Source of the DNA: Gallionella sp.
GTDB taxonomy: Bacteria > Pseudomonadota > Gammaproteobacteria > Burkholderiales > Gallionellaceae
Length of the DNA: 37,340 bases
Direction of reading: 5' to 3'
Assembly: GCA_030653355.1 (NCBI GenBank)
Contig: JAURZN010000142.1
Span: forward strand, 1-37,340
Below the pieces are notes generated by a model. That model did no database searches. It saw only the letters and a program-made list of their open reading frames with translations, and was not told the origin of the DNA. Both the position numbers and the translations under genes were made by a program. Position 1 is the first letter of the stretch, and the number at the start of each line of letters is the position of its first letter. Positions 13,938-35,111 of this stretch are shown here, one piece after another.

Positions 13938-13987
13938 GGAACCCGTTCCGCCTTAACCGCCTTCGCGCGCGCGCGTAACCTGTGCGC
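13938..13987 (+). promoter_or_regulatory. Putative late promoter 1 (lysis module)
   Basis: Dyad GGAACCCGTTCC (13938-13949), -35-like CTTAAC (13952-13957), 18 bp, -10-like TAACCT (13976-13981), 6 bp, ATG at 13988. The spacing matches the element at 34693 base for base. The start of transcription would fall on the ATG, giving a leaderless mRNA. In position it corresponds to Mu Plys. Confidence 0.65.
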
Positions 13988-14173
13988 ATGGCTACCCCAA
14001 TCTCATCACCTGAAAATATCTGCGGTCGCTGCGCTCAATGGACGCGGCTTGATGACGCGCGGCTTCCTGATCACGGCGGCTGTGCGCATCGCCCGGCCGG
14101 GCATTACACGCACGGGCGGCAGGTGTGTTTGACCGTCCCCGTAAAGTTCGCGCCAAAAAGGAAACTTTCATGA
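13988..14173 (+). CDS. Small Cys-rich protein, first gene of the lysis operon
   Basis: 61 residues from the ATG at 13988, which is 6 bp after a -10-like TAACCT and has no Shine-Dalgarno, so it is probably read as a leaderless message. It has a CGRC pair (residues 12-15), GGC and a later Cys in HGRQVCLTVPVKF, an arrangement seen in small putative zinc proteins of phages. Function is unknown. Its stop overlaps the endolysin start (ATGA). Confidence 0.55.
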   Translation: MATPISSPENICGRCAQWTRLDDARLPDHGGCAHRPAGHYTHGRQVCLTVPVKFAPKRKLS

Positions 14174-14622
14174 ACCTTAGCCCACACTTCACGCTGGCAG
14201 AGATGCTGTTGTCGCAGGACGCGACACGCGCAGGTATAGCCAACATACCACCGCCCGAGGTGGTGACCAATTTAATCCGGCTGGCGACGCTGCTGGAAGG
14301 CGTGCGGCTGGTGTTGGGTGGTCATCCGATCAGTATCAGCAGCGGTTATCGCTGCAAGAAACTCAATACCCTGATCGGCGGCAGTCGCACCAGCCAGCAC
14401 ATGCAGGGGCTGGCGGCGGACTTTATCTGTCCGGCCTTTGGTACGCCACGGCAGATATGCGAGCAGCTGCTGGATATGGATTTTAGATTCGATCAGCTGA
14501 TCTTTGAAGGCGCGTGGGTGCATATTTCGCTGTCCGATATAGATGCGCCGTTGCGTAATCAGATGCAGACGGCGGTGTTTAAACCGGGTCACAAGACTCA
14601 ATATTTAAGAGGTTTGTTATGA
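14170..14622 (+). CDS. Endolysin, peptidase M15A family
   Basis: 150 residues from the ATG at 14170. It has the M15 zinc-peptidase pattern: SSGYRCKKLN, then S-x-H-x2-G-x-A-x-D with H77 and D84 (SQHMQGLAADF), and a later W-V-H (H118) as third metal ligand. Such enzymes cut peptide bridges in peptidoglycan. There is no signal peptide, so release should depend on the holin-like gene that follows. It occupies the place of Mu lys, although Mu uses a different fold. The start overlaps the preceding stop. Confidence 0.92.
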   Translation: MNLSPHFTLAEMLLSQDATRAGIANIPPPEVVTNLIRLATLLEGVRLVLGGHPISISSGYRCKKLNTLIGGSRTSQHMQGLAADFICPAFGTPRQICEQLLDMDFRFDQLIFEGAWVHISLSDIDAPLRNQMQTAVFKPGHKTQYLRGLL

Positions 14623-14843
14623 ATGCTGTTCTCCCTGTGGTGGCCGCGCCCGTCAAATTATGGTGGCAATCACGCACTCTTATTGTCAACGCCATTACCG
14701 CCGCGCTGGTGGCACTGGAGGCGGGAACCGGCCTGTTGCAGCCTTATTTGCCAGTTGATTTTTTTACCGTGATTGCGGTGGCGCTACCTATGGTCAATGC
14801 CATTCTGCGGGTGATTACTACGCAGGCGCTGGGGCGGTCATGA
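14619..14843 (+). CDS. Holin-like small membrane protein
   Basis: 74 residues with two hydrophobic segments (about 23-42, VNAITAALVALEAG, and 48-66, FFTVIAVALPMVNAILRVI) and a short basic C-terminus. It lies between endolysin and spanins with ATGA overlaps on both sides, the classic holin position. The sequence alone does not prove pore formation. Confidence 0.8.
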   Translation: MNAVLPVVAAPVKLWWQSRTLIVNAITAALVALEAGTGLLQPYLPVDFFTVIAVALPMVNAILRVITTQALGRS

Positions 14844-15331
14844 TCCCGTTGTTCTATCGTGTTTTAGGTGGCCTGGTGATGATGCTGGCCGTGTTCGCTG
14901 CGGGTTTATGGGCAGGAAAAGATTATGCGAAAAAGAAATGTGTGGCGGGACAGGTGGCGGCGCAAGGCGCAGCAATTATTGCAACGGCAAAGGAAGATAC
15001 GCGCCGTGAAACCATCGGCACGCAGCGCGAAACCAGCGGCGAGCGTATCCGCATCGTTTACAAAAACCTCAAGGAGCAGGCTGATGAAATCGTTAAAAAC
15101 AATCCTGAGTTTAACGATTGCGGCCTTGATGCTGACGGCCTGCGCCTCTGGAACGCCGCCAATAGCGGTAGCGCCGCGCCCGTGCCCGGCGAGCCTGAGT
15201 TCACCCTGTATCACACCGCCACCGGCCAAGTCGGGGAAGCTGACAGACTTGTTGCAGAACCACATCGAGGCGATGGAATGGTACAGCCAGTGCCGGGACA
15301 AGCAGGCCAAGTTGGCGGGGTGCGTAAATAA
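14840..15331 (+). CDS. Rz: Rz-like inner-membrane spanin
   Basis: 163 residues: one N-terminal membrane segment (about 5-26, FYRVLGGLVMMLAVFAAGLW), then a charged, helical periplasmic domain with likely coiled coil (about 50-90). It starts in an ATGA overlap with the holin-like gene. The outer-membrane partner Rz1 is embedded in the +1 frame from 15084, as in lambda. The two would bridge the envelope and fuse the membranes at the end of lysis. Confidence 0.85.
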   Translation: MIPLFYRVLGGLVMMLAVFAAGLWAGKDYAKKKCVAGQVAAQGAAIIATAKEDTRRETIGTQRETSGERIRIVYKNLKEQADEIVKNNPEFNDCGLDADGLRLWNAANSGSAAPVPGEPEFTLYHTATGQVGEADRLVAEPHRGDGMVQPVPGQAGQVGGVRK

Positions 15332-15335
15332 ATGA
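15084..15335 (+). CDS. Rz1: Rz1-like outer-membrane lipoprotein spanin, embedded in Rz
   Basis: 83 residues in another frame inside Rz; start ATG at 15084 with AAGGAG upstream. Type II signal MKSLKTILSLTIAALMLTAC, lipobox LTAC with Cys20, then a proline-rich stretch (PRPCP, ITPPP) typical of Rz1, and a short helical C-terminus. It ends 4 bp after Rz and its stop overlaps the ATG of the repeat mini-cistron. Confidence 0.9.
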   Translation: MKSLKTILSLTIAALMLTACASGTPPIAVAPRPCPASLSSPCITPPPAKSGKLTDLLQNHIEAMEWYSQCRDKQAKLAGCVNK

Positions 15336-15391
15336 CAACCGCAAGGGCAGTCCCACGCAGGGGCGGAGCTAAAGCTCCGATTGCTGAATGA
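15332..15391 (+). CDS. Repeat-derived mini-cistron, copy B (19 aa)
   Basis: The peptide is MTTARAVPRRGGAKAPIAE; start in ATGA with the Rz1 stop, stop in ATGA with the next gene. It contains the hairpin CGGAGC-TAAA-GCTCCG (15364-15379) and corresponds to copy A at 9032-9118 in sequence, frame and junction geometry. A degenerate copy lies at 27170-27222. Confidence 0.4.
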   Translation: MTTARAVPRRGGAKAPIAE

Positions 15392-15591
15392 CCGATCAAC
15401 TTGACCAGGCGCAAGCCTTTGAAGAACTCCGCCGTGCCGATGCGCTGCGCGATCAGGCGCTCAAACCTGCCATGCCTGCGCTGGGCTTTTGCTACAACTG
15501 CGACGAGGTGGTGTTCGAGGGGTGCTTTTGCGATACCGATTGCCGGGATGATTACGAAAAACGCGAAAGGCAATTATGCAGCTCCAGATAG
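15388..15591 (+). CDS. Small zinc-ribbon-like phage protein
   Basis: 67 residues with C-x2-C (FCYNCDE) and C-x-C-x3-C (GCFCDTDC) near residues 33-50, flanked by acidic helices and ending in EKRERQLCSSR. This is a zinc-ribbon layout of the kind found in small TraR/DksA-like or DUF2116-like phage proteins; which one is not clear. It starts at the ATG inside the repeat mini-cistron's stop and overlaps the next gene by 16 bp. Confidence 0.6.
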   Translation: MTDQLDQAQAFEELRRADALRDQALKPAMPALGFCYNCDEVVFEGCFCDTDCRDDYEKRERQLCSSR

Positions 15592-15932
15592 AAATGTGGC
15601 AGCTAATTACCGGATTGATATCGGTGGTGGCGGCTTATGCACTAGTTGTATGGGCATTCGGGACGATTTTGGTTAAGCAATTCAAAACGCAACTGGATCA
15701 ACGTTTTGAAGCTATACAAACTGACAATACTGCGCGTGCCAGAGATGAAGCGAAGATGGCAGAACAACTGCGTGAATTTGAAAAGGAGTTTTTGATATTT
15801 CAACGCGACATGCCGATCCAGTACGTACGGCGCGAAGATTACATACGCGGTCAGACGGTGATCGAATCCAAGCTGGATGCGGTCTATAGCAAGTTGGAAC
15901 TGGTGCAAATACAGGGGGCAAAACGTGATTGA
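15576..15932 (+). CDS. Mu gp25-like membrane protein (DUF2730 type)
   Basis: 118 residues: one N-terminal membrane segment (about 8-33, WQLITGLISVVAAYALVVWA), then a long charged helix (about 38-115) likely to form a coiled coil. Length, order and layout match Mu gp25. Its role in Mu is unknown. AAAGG lies 6 bp before the ATG; the gene overlaps both neighbours. Confidence 0.7.
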   Translation: MQLQIEMWQLITGLISVVAAYALVVWAFGTILVKQFKTQLDQRFEAIQTDNTARARDEAKMAEQLREFEKEFLIFQRDMPIQYVRREDYIRGQTVIESKLDAVYSKLELVQIQGAKRD

Positions 15933-16236
15933 TCATGAAAAGATTCGCCGCGAGAAAATACGCTGGGACATGCTGGTGACGCTGGATTATGCCCGACCTA
16001 TAGGAGCTTATGAAGAGCTGGTGTTGACCACGATTCAGGGGGTGTTCCAGGATGCTACGGCGCTGGAAGTTCGCCGCACGCTAGACTATCTGGCCGACCG
16101 CGAACTGGTCAAGCTGGTGAAAGAGCCTAGCGGTCGTTGGTTTGCCGATCTGACCCGCCACGGTATAGACGTGGTCGAGTACACGATAGATGTAGACCCG
16201 GGTATCGCGCGCCCAACCAAATACTGGGTGGGCTGA
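15925..16236 (+). CDS. Mu gp26-like winged-helix protein
   Basis: 103 residues from a GTG at 15925 (AGGGGG upstream) that overlaps the previous stop. Residues 30-80 look like a winged helix: ELVLTTIQGVFQDATALEVR, then LDYLADRELVKL with the wing at GRWFADLT. It lies between gp25-like and gp27-like genes, as in Mu, where gp26 has no assigned role. It may assist packaging. Confidence 0.7.
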   Translation: MIDHEKIRREKIRWDMLVTLDYARPIGAYEELVLTTIQGVFQDATALEVRRTLDYLADRELVKLVKEPSGRWFADLTRHGIDVVEYTIDVDPGIARPTKYWVG

Positions 16237-16237
16237 G

Positions 16238-16750
16238 ATGGCACCGCGCAGCAAGATCGTTCGCCTGCCAAAAGAGGTCAAAGCATGGCTGGATAAAGCG
16301 CTGGTTGAGGGTGACTTTTCCGGCTATGAGCTTTTATCTGAAGACCTGAAGGCGCGCGGCTTTGATCTATCAAAGAGCGCCATCCATCGCTACGGTCAGG
16401 AATTTGAGGCACGGCTGTCCGCGCTGAAGATGGCAACACAGCAGGCAAAAGCAATCTCAGACTCGGTACCTGACGATGAAGGCGCGATGAACGATGCGCT
16501 GATCCGGCTGGTGCAGCAGAAAGCATTCGACATGCTGCTCAAGATGGAAGAAGGCGCGTCCATGAAGGAAGTCAGCCTGATGGTGGCGCGGTTAAGCAAT
16601 GCTACGGTCAAGCAGAAACAATGGCAGGCCGAGGTACGCGAAAAAGCAAGCTCAGCTGCTGAAGAGGTTGAAAAGATCGCCAAGAAAGGCGGCTTGTCGC
16701 CTGCTGCTGTAAATGAGATCAGGAGCAGAATCCTTGGCATCCAGAACTGA
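16238..16750 (+). CDS. Mu gp27-like DUF3486 protein (small terminase candidate)
   Basis: 170 residues. The N-terminal half carries the DUF3486 pattern (MAPRSKIVRLP, then LSKSAIHRYGQEFEARL); the C-terminal half is helical (LVQQKAFDMLLKMEEGASMK, later AEEVEKIAKKGG). It lies directly before the large terminase, which supports a role in recognising phage DNA for headful packaging. Its N-terminus is duplicated in the early gene at 4786. Confidence 0.85.
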   Translation: MAPRSKIVRLPKEVKAWLDKALVEGDFSGYELLSEDLKARGFDLSKSAIHRYGQEFEARLSALKMATQQAKAISDSVPDDEGAMNDALIRLVQQKAFDMLLKMEEGASMKEVSLMVARLSNATVKQKQWQAEVREKASSAAEEVEKIAKKGGLSPAAVNEIRSRILGIQN

Positions 16751-18326
16751 GCGTAAGGGTGGCGGCGTAGCCGCCGGGAACCCACCGGCCTACCCCTTGC
16801 GGGTGAAATCCATCCCGGTCAGTCTCCCGGGCGATGCCGCGCGCAAAGATGCGCCACCGGCTGTGTTATTGCCCTATCAGATCCGCTGGATCGAAGATGA
16901 CAGCCCGTTAAAAATAGCTGAAAAATCACGCCGGGTCGGTTGGACATGGGGCGAGGCTGCTGATGATGTACTGATTGCAGCACGCGAAGAATATAACTCG
17001 AACGTGTTTTACATCGGCCCTACGCAAGACATGGCACTGGAGTTTATCGAAGCCTGTGCGATGTGGGCGCGTGCCTATGACTATGCCGCCTCTGAGATCG
17101 AAGAGGGTATCTTTGTCGATGGCGATAATGAGATCAAGACTTACAAGATCGATTTTCCTGCAACTGGCAGGCGTATCGTCGCGCTCAGCTCGCGCCCAAC
17201 CAATCTGCGCGGTAAGCAAGGTGTCATCGTCATCGATGAGGCTGCCTTCCACAATGATCTGGATGCGCTGCTCAAGGCCGCGATGGCGATGCTGCTGTGG
17301 GGCGACAAGGTACGCATCATCTCGACGCATGACGGTCAGGACAATGCCTTCAATGAACTCATCCAGGAAGTGCGTGCCGGTAAGCGCAAAGGTGTCGTAC
17401 ATCGCATCACTTTCCGTGAGGCTGTCGAGCAAGGGCTATATCTCAGGGTCTGCCTGCGCCGTGGTATCGCTTGGACTGCCGAAGGTGAGGCTGCATGGGT
17501 AGCTGATGCCTATGCCTTCTATGGTGATGATGCAGCCGAAGAGCTGGATGTTGTTCCCTCGCAATCGGGAGGTGCGTATCTGACGATGGGGCTGATCGAG
17601 GCGAGGATGAATCCGGACACGCCGCTGGTGCGCGGCAAATGGAAATCAGAGTTTGCTTACCTGCCGGACTGGGAGCGTCAGGCTGAAGTGGCCGAATGGT
17701 GTGAAGAGCATCTGAAACCGATACTGGATGGCCTGAATAAAGATATGGCGCATGGCCTCGGTGAAGACTTCGCGCGCCTGGGCGACTTGACGGTGCTGGA
17801 CATCATGGAAGAAGGCCGTGACCTGATCACCCGCGTGCGTGGCCAGATTGAACTGTCCAACTGCCCGTTCACCCAGCAGGAGCAGATCGTGTTCTACATC
17901 CTCAGCCGCCTGCCACGTTTTCGCTCGGCAGCATTCGATGCGCGCGGTAACGGCCAGTATCTGGCAGAACGTGCCGCACAGAAGTTTGGCCAGGCACGTA
18001 TCGAGCAGGTGATGTTGAGCAATGCCTTCTATCTTGAAAATATGCCGCGCTTCAAGGCGGCACTGCAAGACGGCACGCTGGATGACATCCCAAAAGACAA
18101 CCAGGTGCGTGACGACCTGCGCGCGCTGCAGCTTATCGACGGCATCCCGAAACTGGGTAAATCAAAGACACAGACCGGCGAAGGTGAAAAGCTGCAACGC
18201 CACGGCGACTCGGCGATCAGCTTGTTCCTCGGGCACTACGCGATGAAGCGCGAGGTCGCACCTATCGAATACCAGGGCGTCCCCAAGCGCACCGATGAAA
18301 ATTACAGCGGGAGAAGAGCATGGTAG
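16713..18326 (+). CDS. Mu gp28-like large terminase
   Basis: ATPase/nuclease that drives DNA into the prohead. The frame gives 537 residues. Visible motifs are the adenine/Walker A region LKIAEKSRRVGWTWGEA (about 67-83), Walker B VIVIDEAAFH (about 170-179) and the motif III-like IISTHDG. The nuclease part is probably C-terminal (FDARGNG). The true start is uncertain: ATG 16713, TTG 16734, or GTG 16803. The sequence 16754-16785 is a GGCGGC-GTA-GCCGCC palindrome resembling dispersed repeats, so the first 30 residues may not belong to the ancestral protein. Confidence 0.9.
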   Translation: MRSGAESLASRTERKGGGVAAGNPPAYPLRVKSIPVSLPGDAARKDAPPAVLLPYQIRWIEDDSPLKIAEKSRRVGWTWGEAADDVLIAAREEYNSNVFYIGPTQDMALEFIEACAMWARAYDYAASEIEEGIFVDGDNEIKTYKIDFPATGRRIVALSSRPTNLRGKQGVIVIDEAAFHNDLDALLKAAMAMLLWGDKVRIISTHDGQDNAFNELIQEVRAGKRKGVVHRITFREAVEQGLYLRVCLRRGIAWTAEGEAAWVADAYAFYGDDAAEELDVVPSQSGGAYLTMGLIEARMNPDTPLVRGKWKSEFAYLPDWERQAEVAEWCEEHLKPILDGLNKDMAHGLGEDFARLGDLTVLDIMEEGRDLITRVRGQIELSNCPFTQQEQIVFYILSRLPRFRSAAFDARGNGQYLAERAAQKFGQARIEQVMLSNAFYLENMPRFKAALQDGTLDDIPKDNQVRDDLRALQLIDGIPKLGKSKTQTGEGEKLQRHGDSAISLFLGHYAMKREVAPIEYQGVPKRTDENYSGRRAW

Positions 18327-19891
18327 CAACCTCGACGATACTGGATGCCTCGGGCAATCCGATCAAGCGCAGCGAACTGGCTGAGCCGCAGACCTCCAGG
18401 CTGATGCAACTGCACCGCGAATTCTCCGGGCATCCGTCACGGGGTTTAACGCCCGCACGGCTGGCGAAGATACTGGAGGCCGCCGAGCAGGGAGACATAC
18501 GCGCGCAGCATGATCTATTCCTGGACATGGAAGAGAAGGATGCGCATATCTTTGCCGAGATGGGCAAGCGCAAGCGCGCGTTGCTTACTGTGGATTGGGA
18601 CATCGTGCCGCCGCGCGGTGCCAGTGCTGCCGAGCGCAAGCTGGCAGGCTATGCCAAGGAATTGATCCAGGACGTGCCGAACTTTGAGGATGTGATCCTC
18701 GATGCGCTGGACGGCGTCGGCCACGGCTTTTCGTGTCAGGAGATCGAGTGGGAAATGCTGGGCGGCGAGTGGTTGCCTGGGGAAATACACCATCGCCCGC
18801 AAAGCTGGTTTCAGACTGACCGCGAGACGCGCAGCGAGATCCGCCTGCGCGACATGTCGCTGGATGGTCAGGCGTTGCAGCCGTTCGGCTGGATTAGCCA
18901 TGTACATAAGGCGAAGAGCGGCTATGTCGCCCGTTCTGGCTTGCACCGCGTGTTGGCGTGGCCGTATCTGTTCAAGAATTATTCCGTCGGCGATCTGGCC
19001 GAGTTTCTGGAGATATACGGCTTGCCGCTGCGCCTTGGAACCTATCAGGCAGGCGCGTCCGACGACGAAAAGGCCACGCTGCTGCGCGCTGTGATGAGTA
19101 TCGGCCACGATGCCGCCGGTATCGTGCCTGAGGGCATGCTGATTGATTTTAAAGAGGCGGCAAAAGGCAGCGAAGGCCCGTTCATGGCGATGATGGACTG
19201 GGCGGAGAAGAGTATCAGCAAGGCCGTGCTGGGTGGTACGCTCACCAGCCAGGCGGACGGCAAGAGCAGCACCAATGCGCTGGGCAATGTGCACAACGAG
19301 GTGCGCCATGATTTGATGATGTCGGATGCGATCCAGCTGGCCGGGACTTTGACCCGAGATCTGGTCTATCCACTGCTGGCACTGAACAAGGGGGGCGTAG
19401 ATGATAGACGCCGTCAGCCGCGCTTCCAGTTTGTGTTCGACGACAGCGAGGACCTTGCTGTACTGGCTGACGCGCTGCCCAAGCTGGTCGGCGTCGGCAT
19501 GCGCATCCCGTCTGAATGGGCGCATCAGCGCGCGGGGATACCGCTGGCCGAGGAGGGGGAAAGCGTATTGTCGCCACCTGCGGCGATGACGCAAAGCGCC
19601 CTGAAAATGGCTGCGCTGACGGCGGGTGTGGCGAAAGATTTATTCCCCGACCAAACCGCACTGGATGCTGCCATCGAAGGCATAGCACCCGAGCAGCTGG
19701 ACGCGCAAGCCCGCGCCTCGCTCAAGCCGGTGCTTGAACTAATCGCGGCCTCTGCCGACTATGCCGAGGTATTCAATGCACTGGCCGAGACCTTCCCGGC
19801 GATGGATACCGCGCAACTCGAACAGGCGCTGGCACGGGCGATGTTCGTGGCAGATGTTTGGGGTCGCTTGAGCGTGGAAAACAATGCCTGA
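18320..19891 (+). CDS. Mu gp29-like portal protein (DUF935)
   Basis: 523 residues, the usual size. It has the DUF935 character: ELAEPQTSRL near the N-terminus, LTPARLAKILEAAEQGD, KRKRALLTVDWDI, and FLEIYGLPLRLGTYQ in the middle. The dodecameric portal forms the packaging and tail-attachment vertex. It overlaps the terminase end by 7 bp and the next gene by 8 bp. Confidence 0.93.
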   Translation: MVATSTILDASGNPIKRSELAEPQTSRLMQLHREFSGHPSRGLTPARLAKILEAAEQGDIRAQHDLFLDMEEKDAHIFAEMGKRKRALLTVDWDIVPPRGASAAERKLAGYAKELIQDVPNFEDVILDALDGVGHGFSCQEIEWEMLGGEWLPGEIHHRPQSWFQTDRETRSEIRLRDMSLDGQALQPFGWISHVHKAKSGYVARSGLHRVLAWPYLFKNYSVGDLAEFLEIYGLPLRLGTYQAGASDDEKATLLRAVMSIGHDAAGIVPEGMLIDFKEAAKGSEGPFMAMMDWAEKSISKAVLGGTLTSQADGKSSTNALGNVHNEVRHDLMMSDAIQLAGTLTRDLVYPLLALNKGGVDDRRRQPRFQFVFDDSEDLAVLADALPKLVGVGMRIPSEWAHQRAGIPLAEEGESVLSPPAAMTQSALKMAALTAGVAKDLFPDQTALDAAIEGIAPEQLDAQARASLKPVLELIAASADYAEVFNALAETFPAMDTAQLEQALARAMFVADVWGRLSVENNA

Positions 19892-21957: not shown

Positions 21958-22878
21958 ATGAATCGGAGTTACAATTCGCACATGAGCACATTACGAATCA
22001 CCTATGACGGTCCAGCACTCACTTCACATGAAATGGAGGTGAGGCAGCTTGCGCCAGCGCTACATGCGATCGGTGACTTGCTTGAACACGCGAATCGCGT
22101 GTTGAGTGGTGCAGACTCAAAAGTGTCTGTTAGCGTCAAGGGTTCATTCAAAACAGGAAGCTTTGGTATTGATCTGGTATTGCTGCAAGGTTGGGTGCGT
22201 GGCGTAGTGGATATGTTTAATACCCGTGAGGCTGTTGCTATATTAGGCTTGTTATCGATGCTCGGTCTTTCCGGAAAAGATGCCAAGAATGGTCTGATTG
22301 GCGTAATCAAATGGCTGCGCGGTCGCACCTTAACTCAGGTAGTCAAGTCAGATAGTCGTGCAACGCTCTATGTGGATGACGATGCGCTTGAAATAGAGCT
22401 GCAAGTATTGCAGCTGCTGATGGATATTGAAACGCGCCGCGCACTGGATGGTGTAATACGTGAGCCACTCGCACGTGATGGCGTAGATGTGTTTGCCAGC
22501 GGCACTGACAGCGCTATCGAGGTGACTGTCACGCACACTGAGTCATTTTGGTTTGCTGCCCCGGAAGCTGCTGAACAAACTATTTCTGAAACCGAGTCTG
22601 AAGAACGTCTGCAATTAGTCGCAGTCGTCTTTAAGGATGATAATAAATGGCGGTTTTCGGATGGGGCATCAGCTTTTTATGCAGCCATTCTGGATGATGT
22701 CTTTCTGAGTCGGGTTGATAAAGATGAAGAGCGTTTTGGTAAGAATGATATTTTTCGTGTCTTGATTAAGCGCAGGCATTATCTAGATGCTGGTGGTGTA
22801 TTACGCCAAGAAGTCAGCATACTGGAAGTGATTGAGCATACTCCAGCTGCTCGCCAGATTCGCTTGCCGCTTTTATGA
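21958..22878 (+). CDS. Unknown protein inserted between head genes (moron)
   Basis: 306 residues from 21958, or 298 from the ATG at 21982, where the conserved-looking part begins (MSTLRITYDGPALTSHEMEV). Features include APALHAIGDLLEHANRVL, VKGSFKTGSFGIDLVL, a hydrophobic segment (AVAILGLLSMLGLSG, about 92-106), and an acidic C-terminal half. I recognise it as a type of hypothetical protein scattered in phages and bacterial genomes, with no known function. It is AT-richer than its neighbours, preceded by its own regulatory region and followed by a late promoter, so it interrupts the head operon. A lysogen-expressed cargo function is plausible. Confidence 0.65.
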   Translation: MNRSYNSHMSTLRITYDGPALTSHEMEVRQLAPALHAIGDLLEHANRVLSGADSKVSVSVKGSFKTGSFGIDLVLLQGWVRGVVDMFNTREAVAILGLLSMLGLSGKDAKNGLIGVIKWLRGRTLTQVVKSDSRATLYVDDDALEIELQVLQLLMDIETRRALDGVIREPLARDGVDVFASGTDSAIEVTVTHTESFWFAAPEAAEQTISETESEERLQLVAVVFKDDNKWRFSDGASAFYAAILDDVFLSRVDKDEERFGKNDIFRVLIKRRHYLDAGGVLRQEVSILEVIEHTPAARQIRLPLL

Positions 22879-22924: not shown

Positions 22925-22975
22925 GGAACCTGTTCCGCCTTAACGCCCCTCCCCCCGGTTGCCACAATGGCAACC
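22925..22975 (+). promoter_or_regulatory. Putative late promoter 2 (protease/capsid module)
   Basis: Dyad GGAACCTGTTCC (22925-22936), CTTAAC (22939-22944), 18 bp, -10-like CACAAT (22963-22968), 7 bp, ATG at 22976. The dyad-to--10 distance is 38 bp as in the other three elements. An upstream ATG (22967) overlaps the -10 and would not be in the transcript. Position corresponds to Mu PI. Confidence 0.65.
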
Positions 22976-24142
22976 ATGAAAACGACCTCACCCTCTCAGA
23001 AGCAGGACAGAGTTTCGGCGCAAGCCAAATCAAAACCCAAAAAGCCTGCTCTCGGTTTCGGCATCGCCGCCTGTTCGGTGGTGATGAATGACGACGGCGA
23101 AATCCAGCTCACCCCGGCGGGCGCTTTTCGCGGCATTGACGGTCGCCCGAAAGATGCGAAAAACTGGGTAATGGATGCCCGGGCTGCAGCCGAGGTAATC
23201 GCCTTTTGCTCGGCGCGCGAAAATGATTTCGTGATTGATTACGAGCATCAAACCCTGTTGACTGAGAAAAATGGTCAGCCAGCCCCTGCGGCAGGCTGGT
23301 TCTCAGGCGCGGCATTGCGCTGGTCTGAAGGCGAAGGATTGTTCGCCAAGGTGCGCTGGACAGCTAACGCACAAGCCTTCATTGACGGCGAAGAATACAA
23401 ATACATTTCCCCCGTGATTCTGTACGAAGCCGGTACAGGTCGCGTTCGCGGCATCCATTCAGCCGCACTCACCAATTACGCCTGTATCGACGGCATGGAC
23501 GATGTGCTGAGCCGTGCCGCTGCCAGTTATTCCCTTAACCCAGAAACAACAACACAGGAGAGTCTCACTATGGACATGGAAGAATTGTTGGAGCGTCTGC
23601 GCTATTTGCTCAATTTGCCTACTTTAACCACCCCCGAGCAGGTCGCCATCGAGCTGCAAAAGGCGGTTGATCTGATCAAGACCAGTGAGCCAGTGGCTAC
23701 AGCTGCCGCAAGCTTCAGTATCACAGGGCTACTGGCTGACAAAGACGTACAGATTGCTGCGCTCAAGGGTGCGGTGCCTGATCCTGCCAAGTATGTTCCG
23801 GTAGATGCGATGCAGGCATTGCAAACCGAACTGGCCGCACTGCGTGGCGAGAAGGTTACTCGCGACGTGGATGCCGTGGTGGTTACCGCCTTATCCGCTG
23901 GCAAGCTGCTGCCACCTCAGGAGAAGTGGGCGCGTGATCTGGGTAGTAAAGACCTCGATGCGCTGAATCAATATCTGGATACCGCCACGCAGGTCGCTGC
24001 GTTGACCGGCATGCAGACTGGCGGCAAAGCACCGGAAGGCGCTGCGCCTGGTGCGCTGGATGATGCCGAGCTGGCGATGTGCCGCAGCATGGGCGTGTCA
24101 CCGGAAGATTTTCAGAAAACCAAGGCTTTGCAAGCGGTTTAA
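22976..24142 (+). CDS. I: Mu gpI-like prohead protease with in-frame scaffold
   Basis: 388 residues from the ATG at 22976 (391 from 22967). The N-terminal 195 residues are the gpI protease region, with FVIDYEHQTLLTEKNGQPAP, AAGWF and ISPVILYEAGTGRVRGIHSA followed by LTNY. The C-terminal part is a helical scaffold. An internal in-frame ATG at 23570 with CAGGAGAG upstream would make the scaffold alone, the Mu I/Z arrangement. The protease processes scaffold and itself in prohead maturation. It opens the capsid module behind a putative late promoter and has no Shine-Dalgarno at its start. Confidence 0.92.
   Translation: MKTTSPSQKQDRVSAQAKSKPKKPALGFGIAACSVVMNDDGEIQLTPAGAFRGIDGRPKDAKNWVMDARAAAEVIAFCSARENDFVIDYEHQTLLTEKNGQPAPAAGWFSGAALRWSEGEGLFAKVRWTANAQAFIDGEEYKYISPVILYEAGTGRVRGIHSAALTNYACIDGMDDVLSRAAASYSLNPETTTQESLTMDMEELLERLRYLLNLPTLTTPEQVAIELQKAVDLIKTSEPVATAAASFSITGLLADKDVQIAALKGAVPDPAKYVPVDAMQALQTELAALRGEKVTRDVDAVVVTALSAGKLLPPQEKWARDLGSKDLDALNQYLDTATQVAALTGMQTGGKAPEGAAPGALDDAELAMCRSMGVSPEDFQKTKALQAV
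23570..24142 (+). CDS. Z: Internal in-frame scaffold protein (Mu Z-like)
   Basis: 190 residues, same frame as gpI. A good ribosome site (CAGGAGAG, 7 bp before ATG) lies within the protease coding region, exactly at the end of the protease domain. The product is helical and acidic (MDMEELLERLRYLLNLPTL, then PEQVAIELQKAVDLIK), as expected for a capsid scaffold. Confidence 0.75.
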   Translation: MDMEELLERLRYLLNLPTLTTPEQVAIELQKAVDLIKTSEPVATAAASFSITGLLADKDVQIAALKGAVPDPAKYVPVDAMQALQTELAALRGEKVTRDVDAVVVTALSAGKLLPPQEKWARDLGSKDLDALNQYLDTATQVAALTGMQTGGKAPEGAAPGALDDAELAMCRSMGVSPEDFQKTKALQAV

Positions 24143-28716: not shown

Positions 28717-29091
28717 ATGGCTTTAAAAGAGTATCTCGGTGCGATTGTGCTGGAAGTAAACACAGTTGAGGTGGAAGTAGAAAGCCTTGACGTGACCAAG
28801 AAAACAGGCCGCAAGCTGGTCAAGACCATGAATAGAACAGGTCGAGCAGCAGGTTTCTCCAAGGGTGTCGAGGAAATCGACCTCAAGGTATCGGTAGTCA
28901 TTCCCGTGACTGGTGATATTGACTGGGCAGCCATTGAGGGTGCGAAGCTGACGATATTCCCTACCGTTGCGGGCGGTAAGCGAACCAGCTATCTGGATTG
29001 CTTTACCCTAGACGTGGGCGAAAAATACAGCACTGACAACGAAGCCAAGCGTGATTTGAGCATGGCTTGCCTGCGCGAGGTGGTGGAATGA
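28717..29091 (+). CDS. M: Tail tube protein (Mu gpM)
   Basis: 124 residues, beta-rich, with the Mu tube pattern: ALKEYLGAIVLEVNTVEVEV, then TGRKLVKTMNRTGRAAGFSK and DIDWAAIEGAKLTIFPT. It forms the inner tube within the sheath. CAGGAG lies 8 bp before the ATG. The stop overlaps the start of the tail chaperone gene. Confidence 0.92.
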   Translation: MALKEYLGAIVLEVNTVEVEVESLDVTKKTGRKLVKTMNRTGRAAGFSKGVEEIDLKVSVVIPVTGDIDWAAIEGAKLTIFPTVAGGKRTSYLDCFTLDVGEKYSTDNEAKRDLSMACLREVVE

Positions 29092-29405
29092 TCACGGCTG
29101 ATGGCGTCCTGCCGATCGGGCTGGAGTTTGCTGGGAAAAGGCATTCCCGCTTCAAGATTCGCCCCGCAAAAGTACGCGATACGCTTGATGCGATTGCCGA
29201 GGTAGAAAGTGATAGCGGCTTGAAGTTTTACATTGCTGTTTTGGCAAAGCAGCTTGTTGAGCTGGGCGATATTCCTAAAGAGCAGATCACGGCGGCATTG
29301 CTGGCGGAGCTGTTCGATGTTGATCTGGCAGCAATACAGGTGGTGCAGGAGAATCTGGAAAAAAAGTTTCAGCCGCCGAAGGCCAGCTTAACCCCTATCG
29401 GCTAG
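29088..29405 (+). CDS. Tail assembly chaperone, upstream product (Mu gp41)
   Basis: 105 residues from the ATG at 29088 in an ATGA overlap with the tube gene; the frame upstream (29067) is shadow. It has helical GDIPKEQITAALLAELFDVD near the C-terminus. It carries the slippery site A-AAA-AAG (29360-29366) near its end. The unshifted product ends at TAG 29405. The protein chaperones tape-measure polymerisation. Confidence 0.85.
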   Translation: MITADGVLPIGLEFAGKRHSRFKIRPAKVRDTLDAIAEVESDSGLKFYIAVLAKQLVELGDIPKEQITAALLAELFDVDLAAIQVVQENLEKKFQPPKASLTPIG

Positions 29406-29575
29406 CAACGCTTGCACTTGTCAAGCATGGCTTTAGCAGGTCGGATGTACTGGAAATGTCTGAGGTCGAGGTGGTTGCTTATCTCGACCTTATTTGTGAA
29501 GCGACCGGTAAAAAGTCGGCACGCCGTGATGGCACAAAACAACGATTTGTGAGTACAAGAAAAAATGGCAAATGA
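29088..29575 (+). CDS. Tail assembly chaperone, -1 frameshift product
   Basis: Slippage at A-AAA-AAG (29360-29366) moves ribosomes to the -1 frame, which stays open from 29366 to TGA at 29573-29575. This adds about 69 residues (VSAAEGQLNPYRLATLALVK, later MSEVEVVAYLDLICEATGKK). There is no start codon with a ribosome site for this frame. It overlaps the tape-measure start by 11 bp. The extended form is known in Mu and most long-tailed phages, where it binds the tape measure. Confidence 0.85.
29347..29366 (+). promoter_or_regulatory. Programmed -1 frameshift site with upstream SD-like stimulator
   Basis: AGGAG (29347-29351) lies 8 bp before the heptamer A-AAA-AAG (29360-29366). An internal Shine-Dalgarno at about this distance stimulates -1 shifting in dnaX. 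The heptamer is in the correct register of the chaperone frame (codons GAA AAA AAG). Confidence 0.85.
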
Positions 29576-31322
29576 TCTTACCCTTGCATTGCGGCTAATT
29601 GCCAATAGCTCTGGCCTTAAAAATGGCCTGACGCAAGCAAGCGGGTCGGTAAAACGCTTCGGAAATTTCGCGCGTAATGAGTTCGACTCGTTAAAGTCTA
29701 GTTTCAATAGCCTATCCGGAAAGCTGGCGAGCATCGGCGTGAGTCTTTCCGTTGCTCAGCAAGTCATCAAAGCAGCAAAGCTGGATCAATCCCTGATACA
29801 GATCGGCCAGACAGCGGGTGCCAGTAAAGCGCAGGTTGCTGCATTGCGCGCCGAGCTTTTTAAGATGGCGCAGGAAACCGGCAAGCCTGTCGAAGATCTT
29901 CAGCAAGGTTTCAATAATCTCATCCAGTCCGGTATGTCTTGGGACGCCGCTCGCTCCACCATTAAAGATATCAACATTGCGATGGCTGTTACCGGGTCGC
30001 AAGCTGACACTTTATCTGGTGCGCTGAGTGTGGCTGGTCAGGCATTTGATTTTGATCTTTCCAAGCCGGGTCTGGCGCTGAAATTGCTGGATAAAATGAC
30101 CGTCGCTGGCAGGCTCGGCAATGCAGAGCTGGAGGGGTTGTCTGATGTTTTCTCGCGTATCGGTGTGAATGCGAAAGCGGCCGGGATGAACTTCGATCAG
30201 ACGCTGGCTTTCACGGAGACATTATCCCTGGTAGAGCGCCAGCCTGAACGGCTGGCCACACTGGCAGATAGCACGCTGCGTTTATTCAATAATGCCAACT
30301 ATCGCAAGTCGGCAAGCCAAGCCACCGGCGTGCAGTTTTTCAACAAAGACGGCACGCGACGCGCAGCAGCTGAGGTATTGCAGGACATTAAGACTCAATA
30401 CGATAAACTTAAAACCGACCAAGGGCGAGACGCCTTTATGTCAGCTGCATTTGGTAAAGCCGATCTCGATACGATCAAGGGTATGCGTACCCTGCTATCT
30501 GGCGACATGCTGGTTAAGTCCAGACAGTTTGGAAAAACGATCGAGGGGGCTAGTGGCACACTAAAAAAAGACCTCCAGGATGCGTTGGATAATTCTGTAT
30601 CTCAGACAGGTCGGCTTGGTGCTGCGCTCAGGCAAGCGGCGGATGATTTTTCCAAGCCAATCAATGAGACTTTATCCAATACCATTCGCTGGTCTATGGA
30701 TAAAAAGGAAAACGGCGGCCTTGGTATGAGTGGCAAGGATATGTTGCTGGGCGGCACAGGTGCAGTGCTGGGCACGCTCGCTGCGGCGCGTTATGGCAGT
30801 ATGGGCATCAAGGCTATCGCGGGTAAATTCGGCAGTGTGGGCGCAGGCGTGGCAACGGGTAAAGCACTCGAAGCTGCGGCTGGTATAACTCCGGTTTATG
30901 TGACTAACTTTGCGCAAATGGCTGGCAGTAGTGCGGCAAGTATAACTGCCGATGTAGCCGCATCAACTGCGGCTGCAGCTGCGGCACCGGGTTTATTAAA
31001 AACTGTTGCAACTGGCGCAAAATGGATTGCTTACTCCACTCTTCCGGAGATTGCTGCATTAGGTACCGGTGCGATGGCGGCATCTCTCGCAATGGTGACC
31101 GCAGCAGGTGCACTTGGTTATGGCGCTGGTACCTTGATAAACAAGGCTGGATTTGAGGGGTCTGATGCTCAGGAAACATTGGGCGGGACAATTGCAACGA
31201 TGCTTTCGTGGCTTGGTAACAAAGAAGCGCAACAGGCGCTTGAAATCAATCTGCATCTGGATGGTGAAAAGATCACCCAGGTTGTCACCGGCAAGATTGA
31301 TCGGACTGCACGCCGTAGTTAG
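29565..31322 (+). CDS. Tape measure protein (Mu gp42 position)
   Basis: 585 residues, in the TP901/PhageMin_Tail style. N-terminal helices start LALRLIANSSGLKNGLTQAS; the conserved core is LRAELFKMAQETGKPVEDLQ, QAFDFDLSKPGLALKLLDKM and LEGLSDVFSRIGVNAKAAGM. The C-terminal part has Ala/Gly-rich hydrophobic stretches (about 390-420 and 460-530) that may insert in the membrane. Its length sets the tail length, and a protein this short predicts a relatively short tail. It starts 11 bp inside the frameshift product. Confidence 0.9.
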   Translation: MANDLTLALRLIANSSGLKNGLTQASGSVKRFGNFARNEFDSLKSSFNSLSGKLASIGVSLSVAQQVIKAAKLDQSLIQIGQTAGASKAQVAALRAELFKMAQETGKPVEDLQQGFNNLIQSGMSWDAARSTIKDINIAMAVTGSQADTLSGALSVAGQAFDFDLSKPGLALKLLDKMTVAGRLGNAELEGLSDVFSRIGVNAKAAGMNFDQTLAFTETLSLVERQPERLATLADSTLRLFNNANYRKSASQATGVQFFNKDGTRRAAAEVLQDIKTQYDKLKTDQGRDAFMSAAFGKADLDTIKGMRTLLSGDMLVKSRQFGKTIEGASGTLKKDLQDALDNSVSQTGRLGAALRQAADDFSKPINETLSNTIRWSMDKKENGGLGMSGKDMLLGGTGAVLGTLAAARYGSMGIKAIAGKFGSVGAGVATGKALEAAAGITPVYVTNFAQMAGSSAASITADVAASTAAAAAAPGLLKTVATGAKWIAYSTLPEIAALGTGAMAASLAMVTAAGALGYGAGTLINKAGFEGSDAQETLGGTIATMLSWLGNKEAQQALEINLHLDGEKITQVVTGKIDRTARRS

Positions 31323-31329
31323 CAGCTAC

Positions 31330-31379
31330 GGAACATCTTCCTAGCGGAAGCGCTTCCCCCTTGCGCGTAAGCTGCGCGC
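31330..31379 (+). promoter_or_regulatory. Putative late promoter 3 (baseplate module)
   Basis: Dyad-like GGAACATCTTCC (31330-31341), 38 bp to -10-like TAAGCT (31368-31373), 6 bp, ATG at 31380. The -35 position (GCGGAA, 31344-31349) is degenerate, but a second perfect palindrome GGAAGCGCTTCC (31346-31357) overlaps it. The 3' part (TTGCGCGTAAGCTGCGCGC) resembles the corresponding stretch of promoters 1 and 4. Confidence 0.55.
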
Positions 31380-32627
31380 ATGGCCTGGAACGATACCCTA
31401 CTTGATGCGACCTTTCGCGGTGTGACGTTTGATTGCGTCGGCACTAGCGATGCGGTTCAGCACGCACTGGTCGAACACGATTACCCTTATGTCGCCGGTG
31501 CCGATGTCGAGGATATGGGCACACAGGCGCGGCATGTGTCTATTCGCGCCGTGTTCTACGGCATCGATTATGAAAGCCGATTGCAAACCTTTATCGCCGC
31601 ACTGGACGGTGTAAAGATTGATGCGATACCGGATGAGACCTCGCCCCTCGGCGGCTGGTTGCAGCATCCTGTTTTCGGGATGATGTTCTGCCAGGTGGCG
31701 ACCTATCGCATCGCACATGATGCTGAGGCCGTTGACGAGGCTCAGGTCGAGATCGAGTTTGTTGAATCCACCCCTGCTGCCCCTTTCTTTATTCGCGAGC
31801 TGGCTGTGCAAAAGGCTGAGGCTATTGCTCAGCACGGCACGGCTGCCACAGCGGCCGCCACCGAAAACATGGGGGCTGTGGTGGATCGGATGCGCAATCC
31901 ATTGGCTGCACTGGATGCCTTGCGCACCGCACTGACCGGGCCGTTGCTGGCGATCAGTAAGCAGGCGGGTGTGGTGCTCTCTGGTCTGGATGTGCTGGCT
32001 TACCCTCGCGCCTGGGGAAATGATATTTCCGCACTGGTTGGCGGCATCCTCGATGTGCGACAGTTTGGTGATCAGCTGGTGGCCGACTGGGCGAGCATTC
32101 AAAGCGATCTGAACGCCTTTTCTATCTTCAGCACTCCCTCTTCAGTTGTGCCTGCCCCTATTTCCTACAGCAACACACCGAGCGAGGCGCAAGGCATCGC
32201 CGCTGCGGCCGCGACGATGCAGGTCAATACCGCATCAGGGTTGGCCGATGCAGCTGGCGTGTTGTTGGCGGTCGAGGCAGCCACGCCCACCCTCTCACCA
32301 GTGCAGATCGAAGCGATCGCTAATACGGCACGCACTGCGATCGAGGCTGCCATCGTGCAGGTACGGGCGATCTATGGCGTTGAGCAGGGGCGCACGATAA
32401 CAGAACCGCTGAAAGACCAAGGGTTGGCGGTTCAGGAGGCGGCGCGGGCGATCATTGTCACGCGTCCGCCACTTATACAGCGCACAGCAGAGGCAGATGG
32501 CAATTTCCGCCTGCTGGCGCATCTGTGGTACGGCGATCACACGCGGGCGACTGAGCTGTATCGTCTGAATGGCGCACGCAGCCCGTTCGTGCGTCAAGGA
32601 GAGGTGGTGAGTGGCTATGCCAGGTAA
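31380..32627 (+). CDS. N: DNA circularisation/baseplate protein (Mu gpN)
   Basis: 415 residues; begins MAWNDTLLDATFRGVTFDCV and contains LVEHDYPYVAGADVEDMGTQ and FIAALDGVKIDAIPDETSPL, the gpN/DNA-circularisation-N signature. The C-terminus, with FRLLAHLWYGDHTRATELYR then LNGARSPFVRQGE, is typical. It acts in the baseplate and in Mu was linked to non-covalent circularisation of injected DNA. It starts 6 bp after a -10-like box without a Shine-Dalgarno, so the message is probably leaderless. Confidence 0.93.
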   Translation: MAWNDTLLDATFRGVTFDCVGTSDAVQHALVEHDYPYVAGADVEDMGTQARHVSIRAVFYGIDYESRLQTFIAALDGVKIDAIPDETSPLGGWLQHPVFGMMFCQVATYRIAHDAEAVDEAQVEIEFVESTPAAPFFIRELAVQKAEAIAQHGTAATAAATENMGAVVDRMRNPLAALDALRTALTGPLLAISKQAGVVLSGLDVLAYPRAWGNDISALVGGILDVRQFGDQLVADWASIQSDLNAFSIFSTPSSVVPAPISYSNTPSEAQGIAAAAATMQVNTASGLADAAGVLLAVEAATPTLSPVQIEAIANTARTAIEAAIVQVRAIYGVEQGRTITEPLKDQGLAVQEAARAIIVTRPPLIQRTAEADGNFRLLAHLWYGDHTRATELYRLNGARSPFVRQGEVVSGYAR

Positions 32628-32841
32628 TTCAATGAATATAGTGGCAATGTGTATTGGTTACATCATTATGTGTTTGGCTGCGGGCGGCGCTATAGCTGCG
32701 ACCGCAATTTGGGTTTCTCTTTTGAGTAATCGGGCGCAGCATGCTTTGTTGAATTCGTTTGGCGGGTGGAAGGTTTTTATGGAGTACCGCACCTGGCTCA
32801 ATGAACGCAAGACTGACAGTTCTGCTAGAGATGCAGAGTAA
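32617..32841 (+). CDS. Small membrane protein 1 between gpN and gpP
   Basis: 74 residues from ATG 32617 (76 from GTG 32611), with AAGGAGAGG upstream inside gpN. One strong hydrophobic segment (about 6-34, MNIVAMCIGYIIMCLAAGGA, then IAATAIWVSLL) and a short basic/charged C-terminus. It is AT-richer than its neighbours and has no counterpart in Mu. It is paired with a second one-TM protein and could be an exclusion or inner-membrane baseplate factor; the function is unknown. Confidence 0.55.
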   Translation: MPGNSMNIVAMCIGYIIMCLAAGGAIAATAIWVSLLSNRAQHALLNSFGGWKVFMEYRTWLNERKTDSSARDAE

Positions 32842-33004
32842 TATGCTAAATAAAATCAAGGCACATCCTGTTCTGAATCTGACATTAAGACTGGCGTCTA
32901 TCATCCTGATCGGTGCGCTGGTTATGGTTGGAATGAAGGCTGTTGAGTGGCTTATTCCGAATCAACCCGTCATCATTAAAGTCATTGACCATGCCTGCGA
33001 TTGA
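32831..33004 (+). CDS. Small membrane protein 2 between gpN and gpP
   Basis: 57 residues from the ATG at 32831, which overlaps the previous gene, or 53 from the ATG at 32843. One hydrophobic segment (about 19-36, LRLASIILIGALVMVGMK), then WLIPNQPVIIKVIDHACD. It overlaps the gpP start by 14 bp. Its base composition is like that of the preceding small gene, suggesting both arrived together. No known family is recognised. Confidence 0.5.
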   Translation: MQSNMLNKIKAHPVLNLTLRLASIILIGALVMVGMKAVEWLIPNQPVIIKVIDHACD

Positions 33005-34109
33005 TAATGTCGAACTGTTGATCGGCGGAAAAGCGCACGGCGACTGGTCCAGCTATGAAGTCGATTCTGATCTGCTCACCCCCGCCGATGCATGGCATGT
33101 CACGCTCGGGATGTCTGGCGGGCAGATGCCGCCCGACGTGGTTGCCGGTGCGCCGGTGGTGGTCAAGGTCGGCGGCGATACGGTGATGACCGGGCGCATC
33201 GATGAGGTCAGCCATCAGGTTAGTAAAGCGTCGCATACCCTGACGCTGTCAGGTCGCGATGGTGCTGCCGTGCTGCTGGACTGTTCCGCGCCGATCTTTA
33301 CCGCGCGCATGGCCAGTCTGGATGAGATCATCGCCAAGGTGGTTCGCCCGATGGGCATCACTAAAATCCGCATCGATGCTGAAGCGACCAGTACGCGCGA
33401 AAAAATCAACATCGAGCCTGGCGACAGCGCATGGGATGTGCTTTCGCATGCTGCCGAAGCCAATGGCCTGTGGCCGTGGTTCGAGCCTGACGGCACGCTG
33501 GTGGTCGGAGGGCCTGACTACAGCCTGCCTGTGGTGGCCACGCTGGTGCTACGCCGGGATGGCCAAGGCAACAACGTAATCAGCCTGGACAAGACTGATT
33601 CGGTTGCCGAGCGTTATTCGCAGGTGACGGTGCTTGGCCAGGCACACGGTACGGAAACTGAGCCGGGAAAACACGCGCTGCGCGCCTCTGAAAAAGATAT
33701 CGGCATCAGCTGGTATCGTCCGAAGATTGTCAGCGACCACGAAGCTGATAATACCGACATCTGCCGCAAGCGCGCACGCAAGCTGATCTCGGATAGTCGT
33801 CTGAAGGGGCTGACGCTGACGGCTACGGTTCAGGGCCATCGCATCGGTAGCACCGATGGCGTAGGAGTTGGCCTGTTGTGGACCCCCGGCCAGCGTATCT
33901 ATGTCGTTTCAGAACCGCACGGAGTAGCTGATATTTATTTCCTGATGGCGCGTAAGTTCACCCGCTCACGTAGCGACGGCACGCGTACCACGCTGACGCT
34001 CAAGGAAGATGGCGTCTGGGCGCTGGATGCGCATCCGCACAAACGTAAGCACCGGCGCGGTAAAAACAGTGCGCCTGCGCAAATCCAAGTTTTTCCAAGC
34101 GCAACATGA
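32991..34109 (+). CDS. P: Baseplate hub protein (Mu gpP)
   Basis: 372 residues from the ATG at 32991, where the family sequence begins (MPAIDNVELLIGGKAHGDWS); the frame extends upstream to 32943 but that is shadow of the small membrane gene. It contains HVTLGMSGGQMPPDVVAGAP, VTLSGRDGAAVLLDC-type hub strands and VTVLGQAHGTETEPGKHA. It forms the central hub under the tube. It overlaps the next gene by 4 bp. Confidence 0.92.
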   Translation: MPAIDNVELLIGGKAHGDWSSYEVDSDLLTPADAWHVTLGMSGGQMPPDVVAGAPVVVKVGGDTVMTGRIDEVSHQVSKASHTLTLSGRDGAAVLLDCSAPIFTARMASLDEIIAKVVRPMGITKIRIDAEATSTREKINIEPGDSAWDVLSHAAEANGLWPWFEPDGTLVVGGPDYSLPVVATLVLRRDGQGNNVISLDKTDSVAERYSQVTVLGQAHGTETEPGKHALRASEKDIGISWYRPKIVSDHEADNTDICRKRARKLISDSRLKGLTLTATVQGHRIGSTDGVGVGLLWTPGQRIYVVSEPHGVADIYFLMARKFTRSRSDGTRTTLTLKEDGVWALDAHPHKRKHRRGKNSAPAQIQVFPSAT

Positions 34110-34663
34110 TCAAGACGATAGATGCCCGTATTCGCCGCGCCTTAAGCGGCATCCGCCTCACCTTTAGGGGGGTGCTGACACTGGTGAAATCTGCCAGCGC
34201 GGTGCAGTTGGTACAGCTGGATGGTATGAGTGGCGAGCAGTTGCAGGATGCCGAGTTATTTCAGCAGTTTGGTTTTACCAGCAATCCGCCTGCCGGCACG
34301 ATGGCGATCATCTTGCCGGTCGGTGGTCAGACTGCACACGGCATCGTCATCGCTACCGAGCACGGCACGCTACGCCTCAAGGGGCTGGCCAGTGGCGAGG
34401 CGGCGATCTATAACCAATGGGGTGATCACGTTATCCTGTCGAAAGATCGGCGCATGAAGGTGGTATCGGCGCTGGCTGTGGATATCACCACGCCGACTGT
34501 TAACATGAGCGGCGATCTTAACGTGGCGGGCAGCATTGTTGCTCAGGCTGATATTAGCGACCACGGCAACAAGAGCATGGCCGGGATGCGCACCACCTAC
34601 AACGGCCATACGCAAAACGACCCTCAAGGCGGCAGCGTCAGCCCGCCGACTCAGCAGATGTAA
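34106..34663 (+). CDS. Baseplate spike protein (Mu gp45/gpQ position)
   Basis: 185 residues: MIKTIDARIRRALSGIRLTF, then VQLDGMSGEQLQDAELFQQF and GFTSNPPAGTMAIILPVGGQ, all typical of Mu gp45, the membrane-piercing spike. It ends with the beta-helix part (VNMSGDLNVAGSIVAQADIS) and a TYNGHTQNDPQGG tip that resembles the metal-binding tip (HxH-type) in the Mu spike. Confidence 0.93.
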   Translation: MIKTIDARIRRALSGIRLTFRGVLTLVKSASAVQLVQLDGMSGEQLQDAELFQQFGFTSNPPAGTMAIILPVGGQTAHGIVIATEHGTLRLKGLASGEAAIYNQWGDHVILSKDRRMKVVSALAVDITTPTVNMSGDLNVAGSIVAQADISDHGNKSMAGMRTTYNGHTQNDPQGGSVSPPTQQM

Positions 34664-34692
34664 TCCATCAAAACCCGCAATGTTTGAATGGC

Positions 34693-34742
34693 GGAACCTG
34701 TTCCGTCTTAACTGACCATCCGCGCGCGCGTAACCTCGCGGC
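34693..34742 (+). promoter_or_regulatory. Putative late promoter 4 (distal baseplate/fibre module)
   Basis: Dyad GGAACCTGTTCC (34693-34704), CTTAAC (34707-34712), 18 bp, -10-like TAACCT (34731-34736), 6 bp, ATG at 34743. The dyad, -35, -10 and ATG are spaced exactly as in the element at 13938, and both contain CGCGCGCGCG just before TAACCT. Confidence 0.65.
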
Positions 34743-35111
34743 ATGGATACCTTGATAGACCCGACAAGTAAAGACTATGTGCTGTTGCAAGGCGCTGCCG
34801 AGCGTGATCCGGCAGGCGGCCTGGCCAATGCGTGCTACCTGCGTCTGTCTATTCCGCTGGGTAGTTACTGGGCGGAAAAAACCATCGGCAGTCGCCTTCA
34901 TGAGTTGAAGCGCGAGAAGGATGTCGCGCGGGTCGCTATCCTCGCCAAACAATATGCTGAAGCTGCGCTGGCGCCCTGTGTCGCTGATGGTCGCGCTACC
35001 AGTATCACCGTATCCACCGAGCGTGCTGCAGGCCGTCTTAATCTGTTGATCAAGGCGCTGGCGGCGAATGGCCAGACGTTAACTTTTCAACACCCTGTCG
35101 GAGTGATTTAA
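34743..35111 (+). CDS. V: Baseplate protein gp46-like
   Basis: 122 residues with the Phage GP46 pattern: KDYVLLQGAAERDPAGGLAN, LRLSIPLGSYWAEKTIGSRL, then EAALAPCVADGRA. It is a wedge component of the Mu baseplate (gp25/T4-like). It starts 6 bp after the -10-like box of putative late promoter 4 with no Shine-Dalgarno. Confidence 0.92.
   Translation: MDTLIDPTSKDYVLLQGAAERDPAGGLANACYLRLSIPLGSYWAEKTIGSRLHELKREKDVARVAILAKQYAEAALAPCVADGRATSITVSTERAAGRLNLLIKALAANGQTLTFQHPVGVI

Follow-up and report, generated by a model that had tools for sequence, protein, structure and literature searches.

How a Mu-like phage might switch on several late operons together, and have them translated from start codons that lack a Shine-Dalgarno sequence, is the question raised by a 37,340-nucleotide (nt) stretch of a Gallionella sp. 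assembly (contig JAURZN010000142.1; hereafter, the window), which by profile matches of its proteins carries a Mu-like prophage. Four co-oriented elements of common geometry lie in this prophage, each comprising a dyad, a -35-like TTAACN box (in three of the four), a spacer of 17 base pairs (bp), a TANNNT-like -10 hexamer and an ATG 6-7 bp further on (Table 1). An initial annotation had taken them for late promoters with leaderless starts. From the comparative sequence evidence described below, we consider it quite likely that they are sigma70-type late promoters activated by a Mor/C-like protein, with mRNAs that start at the AUG. Additionally, we describe complementary arms around the -10, a feature that had been missed.

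A search for the pattern GGAACNNSTTCC on the + strand returned exactly positions 13938, 22925, 31330 and 34693, and reproduced the annotated geometry to the base, with each hexamer 38 bp from the dyad start and the ATG following at 6, 7, 6 and 6 bp. CTTAAC is present in three of the four as had been described, with GCGGAA in its place in element 3 (31330), but the 18-bp spacer assigned to it is better read as TTAACN with 17 bp, a more canonical -35 register. In element 2, the CACAAT hexamer overlaps a further in-frame ATG (CACAATG, 22967). If +1 is the A of the ATG, the dyad is centred at -44.5 in three elements and at -45.5 in the element at 22925, which has the 7-bp gap; on that condition the elements share the Mu-type arrangement of a dyad adjoining the -35 with its centre at about -43 to -45.

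Dinucleotide shuffling of the window (300 rounds) yielded on average 0.003 copies of the full pattern (never more than 1), compared with the four observed; for the dyad, seven strand matches at four places compare with 0.06 on average and 2 at most. When the window was scored with a weight matrix derived from 32 elements on other contigs, each less than 80% identical to the window elements, the four elements came first (56.9, 52.9, 37.6 and 19.1), the next places scoring 12.0 and then 0.7. Since the bare dyad showed no enrichment in the whole 2.6-Mb assembly (12 strand matches versus 36 for a reversed-pattern control), the signal resides in clustering and geometry and not in the dyad alone. 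Dyad counts were dropped as proof for this reason and because a one-mismatch dyad search, with matches in 8 of 199 genomes, also returned many control matches. With a generalised pattern, matches turned up in 14 of 398 genomes of the phylum, counting the own genome, and control matches in 2; of the 14, one other (L167) resembles an element by eye. A genome scan found the hexamer in the right place in 6 of 19 stretches, five of these also with the ATG; the six belong to Gallionella (2), Gallionellaceae, Sideroxydans, Sulfuriferula and Nitrosomonadales. Dyad and CTTAAC alone retrieved 23 viral stretches, of which 14 had a [TC]A...T hexamer in place and all of these an ATG 6-7 nt on; most elements in our collection were selected by this hexamer and the ATG, so that hexamer counts there are biased by selection. 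The collection excludes loci duplicating the window and retains L046, L058 and L069, which are possibly stray matches.

The four window starts have the form expected of leaderless genes, with a -10 immediately before the AUG and, as annotated, no Shine-Dalgarno sequence: their anti-Shine-Dalgarno duplex energies are +1.7, -1.3, +0.7 and -1.1, compared with a mean of -4.8 at 25 other window starts of our choosing. A candidate activator is encoded upstream, at 13053. Its product belongs to the Mor/C family by its match to phrog_836 (late transcriptional activator; 4.4e-24), and its 22.7 bits against Pfam Mor lie under the Pfam cut-off of 24.9. The first element lies 0.5 kb after this gene, and elements also follow the gene in relatives at 71% and 57% identity.

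Relatives were collected with proteins, not the motif, as bait, and many are near-identical and hence not independent. The whole element precedes all six I orthologues, and of the 25 N orthologues assessed, 21 have the hexamer precisely 6 nt 5' of the ATG (26 fetched; L151 is without a start, L132 is cut before the dyad and L152 was scored at an ATG upstream of the match). Before gp46 the element is present in 7 of 12 assessed relatives (of 14). The N-termini of the orthologues at these ATGs are shared. Base -1 is C in 25 of the 28 elements that were not fetched with a CATG pattern. Because the dyad varies among relatives (for example, GGAAGATATTCC, GGAAACGCTTCC, TGAAGCGCTTCA, TGAAGCCCTTCA), the annotated GGAAC dyad, though present, represents one variant within a broader GAA-N4-TTC class. 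At the level of sequence, these relatives support both the predicted leaderless late promoters and the 13053 product as their candidate activator.

A closer link to the activator family comes from two genomes of the same genus (loci L007 and L010), where the dyad, -35 and -10 stand in register directly before a Mor-family gene (phrog_836, 2e-31 and 5e-29; Pfam Mor, 57.1 and 62.3 bits), the boxes being CTTATC or CTTAAC and then TACAGT. There is no ATG at +1 at these loci; CCATAAAC is found where other elements have C-ATG, and the genes have leaders of 24 or 21 nt with a Shine-Dalgarno sequence. This arrangement links the dyad with the activator family, shows the promoter signal uncoupled from the start codon, and slightly raised our already good confidence in the late-promoter reading; it also suggests that the element could serve feedback or a two-step cascade.

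Within each element the bases flanking the -10 are complementary, even as their sequences vary from one element to the next: GGTTGCC/GGCAACC in the window, GGTTGGC/GCCAACC in L016, CTCGC/GCGAG in L028 and GTCGCCAT/ATGGCGAC in L008. Arms were never a selection criterion, and the stem search ended at the ATG by construction. Across 51 non-redundant elements (of 107 found), the mean fold with own arms was -9.04 kcal/mol, against -6.80 +/- 0.28 kcal/mol with arms swapped between elements, and none of 20,000 permutations was as low. A plain pairing score (14.4 own versus 11.6 +/- 0.3) exceeded all 200 swaps, and an earlier set of 40 elements (of 65) gave an agreeing result. For the 29 elements without GCGCGCG the values were -8.56 and -6.35 +/- 0.34 (0 of 20,000). 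Arms are weak in L020, L044, L046, L058, L069 and L099. In general, the arms may block translation of read-through RNA, help to open the DNA or be partly a by-product of GC-rich flanks.

The same geometry extends to other phages. D3112-like regions occur in 122 phage records, among which we read D3112 and seven further regions; B23 and D3112 each carry two elements with TGAA-type (GAA-N4-TTC) dyads, and the deposited starts of two B23 genes are the predicted leaderless ATGs. In LESphi4, JBD93 and CF53c, the depositors placed the I-protease start precisely on the predicted ATG, and the N-terminus is common to them; in the D3112 record (L098, 19793-19918) the annotated protease start lies downstream of, and in a different frame from, the predicted one. 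One element of Curvibacter TJ1 passed the filter, and two more with GACACT were seen by eye. Klebsiella phage ST405-OXA48phi1.1 has TGAAGCCC-type dyads before three operons, and RR1-B a longer dyad before four, one of them possibly leaderless by eye. The RR1-B record (L092) repeats GACCGGAACCG(A/G)GTTCCGGTC at 11535, 18999, 26076 and 31113, followed at three of the four by T-rich sequence; these repeats may serve as terminator and activator site both. By eye, SuMu I and YPCBV-1 combine dyads with a leader, SuMu gp46 passed the filter but lacks arms, and MP22 and JBD16C have strong arms and no clear dyad of this class.

We propose that a dimer of the 13053 product would bind the dyad centred at -44.5 and recruit the sigma70 RNA polymerase of the host to a weak promoter (TTAACN, 17 bp, TANNNT). 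Transcription would begin at the A of the start codon, give or take one or two bases; the lysis, I-protease, N and gp46 messages would then be leaderless and read without a Shine-Dalgarno sequence. As a guess, the arms in read-through RNA from upstream may form a hairpin abutting the AUG and so keep each gene silent until its own promoter fires. Activator identity, the exact +1 and leaderless translation are what we infer here. Several observations weigh against this picture. N lacks the element in 2 of 25 relatives (L143, L153) and has another spacing in two more (L150, L139). Five of 12 relatives have no element 5' of gp46, and in these a stop codon by eye abuts or overlaps the ATG as in coupled genes. 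Three of six scanned Mor-like loci (14 fetched) showed no downstream element (L103, where hardly any sequence remains; L104, with 1.3 kb; L105, at 35% identity, with 10 kb). For a third dyad in B23 (28422), no ATG stands at the expected spacing, and the DMS3, MP48 and D3112 records place the protease start 122-126 nt downstream of the predicted ATG. As for the arms, the 22 GCGCGCG elements, which include window elements 1 and 4, showed no effect (-9.68 versus -9.41 +/- 0.21; 1,946 of 20,000), and L007 has strong arms despite its leader and Shine-Dalgarno sequence, which disfavours a purely translational role.

Among the alternatives, it is possible, if less than likely, that the arms act in DNA, supercoiling or unwinding by the activator exposing the -10 in a hairpin loop. 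The -10 indeed lies within or beside the loop, L007 keeps its arms without a leaderless start, and unwinding of promoter DNA by Mu C is reported for Pmom (PMC4461284). In a strand-preference test, arm mismatches were G-T rather than A-C by 12 to 4, against a background already 71% G-T. Stems of 5-8 bp are, however, short for cruciforms. We are similarly hesitant about the idea that the arms have no pairing role and merely accompany GC-rich flanks that impede promoter melting in the absence of activator: GCGCGCG runs occur in 22 of the 51 elements, with own arms no better than swapped, but in the other 29 own arms are far better. That the promoters belong to a widespread late regulon of Mu-like phages and double as a lock, with RNA from the own promoter leaderless and translatable and read-through RNA hairpinned at its AUG, or with the arms opening promoter DNA, is a speculation that we hold rather doubtful. 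If it were true, each lysis or structural gene could be read only when its own activated promoter is used, and an activator gene with the same promoter would keep an ordinary leader.

An improbable reading of the elements themselves is that they are Mu-type late promoters whose RNA starts further upstream, the arms being a 5' leader hairpin and the hexamer no -10. Arms complementary beyond composition would indeed form an RNA hairpin if transcribed, but L007 and L010, chosen without regard to the hexamer and lacking the ATG, keep its place and T-A...T form, and TTAACN, the one other box conspicuous by eye, would as a -10 put the dyad near -20 rather than at about -44. Least probable is that the dyads are sites of a repressor or other phage regulator: the early region holds further candidates (for example, a CII-like match at 4289, below the Pfam cut-off), but the dyad centre fits Mor at Mu Pm, element 1 follows the Mor/C-like gene, as do elements in relatives at 71% and 57% identity, and the element directly precedes Mor-family genes in two genomes.

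The proposed activated, leaderless late promoters can be compared with known systems. With the C-dependent Mu promoters Plys, PI, PP and Pmom (PMC4461284, PMC4287176), the likeness is in an activator dyad upstream of or overlapping the -35 and a weak -10, and the Mu late promoters likewise use host RNA polymerase and a Mor/C family activator and serve lysis, head and tail genes. Elements precede the lysis and I operons as in Mu, but the annotated parallel with PP is loose, since the tail elements here stand before N and gp46 and not before P. As in Mu, the activator gene comes after gemA; Mu uses Mor and then C, and one such gene is seen in this prophage. Unlike the predicted starts here, the Mu lys and I genes have leaders in their upstream sequence. 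In keeping with the proposed start point, the Mu lys oligonucleotide, described as extending 20 nt past the start, puts +1 by our count about 6 nt after TAGACT (PMC4461284). The dyad differs as annotated, GGAACNNSTTCC being absent by eye from the Mu lys, I and P oligonucleotides. At Mu Pm, the Mor dyad is centred at -43.5 (PMC4287176; PMC4390567), compared with -44.5 here if +1 is the A of the ATG; unlike at Pm, late genes would here be driven directly, and the core is GAA-N4-TTC. We noticed by eye that the Mu lys -10 is surrounded by a 5-bp repeat, CTGAT/ATCAG; Mu PI was not counted as a case of arms, its inverted repeat before I sitting at the start region and not around the -10.

The lambda cI message from PRM is a leaderless phage mRNA whose RNA starts at the AUG without a Shine-Dalgarno sequence. 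In contrast to it, several late operons, lysis and structural, would here stand under one candidate activator. Leaderlessness itself is not new, because one paper states phage transcripts to be often leaderless (PMC5312081); another lists program-predicted promoters of D3112-like phages (PMC4378225). We found no published leaderless late regulon in Mu-like phages, in a search that left most subscription papers outside, so an earlier description is possible; the arrangement is not special to this phage, as D3112-like Pseudomonas phages have it.

Table 1. Positions of the elements and genes discussed, in window coordinates except for the last two rows, which refer to loci L007 and L010.
Feature	Position	Strand	Basis or remark
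Mu transposase-like gene	5145		profile match
AAA ATPase gene	7294		profile match
GemA gene	12489		profile match
Mor/C-like candidate late activator gene, 125 amino acids	13053..13430	+	directly after GemA; phrog_836 and Pfam Mor
Element 1 dyad GGAACCCGTTCC	13938..13949	+	matrix score 56.9
Element 1 -35-like TTAACC	13953..13958	+	17 bp 5' of hexamer
Element 1 complementary arms around -10 TAACCT (13976-13981)	13969..13987	+	fold; GCGCGCG subclass, not significant alone
First lysis-operon gene, 61 amino acids	13988..14173	+	no family match; ATG = predicted +1
M15 peptidase endolysin gene	14164-14622	+	profile match
Element 2 dyad GGAACCTGTTCC	22925..22936	+	matrix score 37.6
Element 2 -35-like TTAACG	22940..22945	+	
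Element 2 arms GGTTGCCA/TGGCAACC around -10 CACAAT (22963-22968)	22957..22975	+	fold, swap test
Mu I-like protease gene	22976..24142	+	PF10123, 1.7e-108; ATG = predicted +1
gpT head protein gene	24614		profile match
Element 3 imperfect dyad GGAACATCTTCC	31330..31341	+	matrix score 19.1
Element 3 arms GCGCGTA/TGCGCGC around -10 TAAGCT (31368-31373)	31363..31379	+	fold, swap test
N-like baseplate hub/DNA circularisation gene	31380..32627	+	PF07157, 3.6e-22; ATG = predicted +1
Element 4 dyad GGAACCTGTTCC	34693..34704	+	matrix score 52.9
Element 4 -35-like TTAACT	34708..34713	+	
Element 4 arms around -10 TAACCT (34731-34736)	34724..34742	+	fold; GCGCGCG subclass, not significant alone
gp46-like baseplate gene	34743..35111	+	PF07409, 1.4e-16; ATG = predicted +1
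L007 element and Mor-family gene	1501-1964		
L010 element and Mor-family gene	1501-1937	reverse	

The prophage also has a gp45 gene by profile match, and its surroundings hold several further features. An open reading frame at 1-2310 matches the TraG N-terminal region (PF07916), so that the prophage adjoins a conjugation gene, and the early region includes a gene for an HU-like DNA-binding protein (PF00216, 11591-11875). Directly 5' of the I promoter lies a 306-amino-acid gene (21958-22878) without a Pfam match, possibly an accessory gene. A hairpin and T run resembling an intrinsic terminator (13909-13934) end directly before dyad 1; terminators just 5' of the dyad occur in 5 of 50 elements (window element 1 and four others) versus 28 of 2,040 random pieces and are a minor feature.

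In DMS3, JBD93 and LESphi4 the I promoter comes after the anti-CRISPR genes and one more small gene, and by this placement it marks the border of the anti-CRISPR locus. The motif and geometry supply a means of locating late promoters and correct start codons in Mu-like phages. The proposed regulon predicts leaderless late messages across a broad Mu-like group that includes the laboratory phages D3112, DMS3 and JBD93, and would offer a natural system for studying the high output of structural protein from phage genes that lack Shine-Dalgarno sequences.

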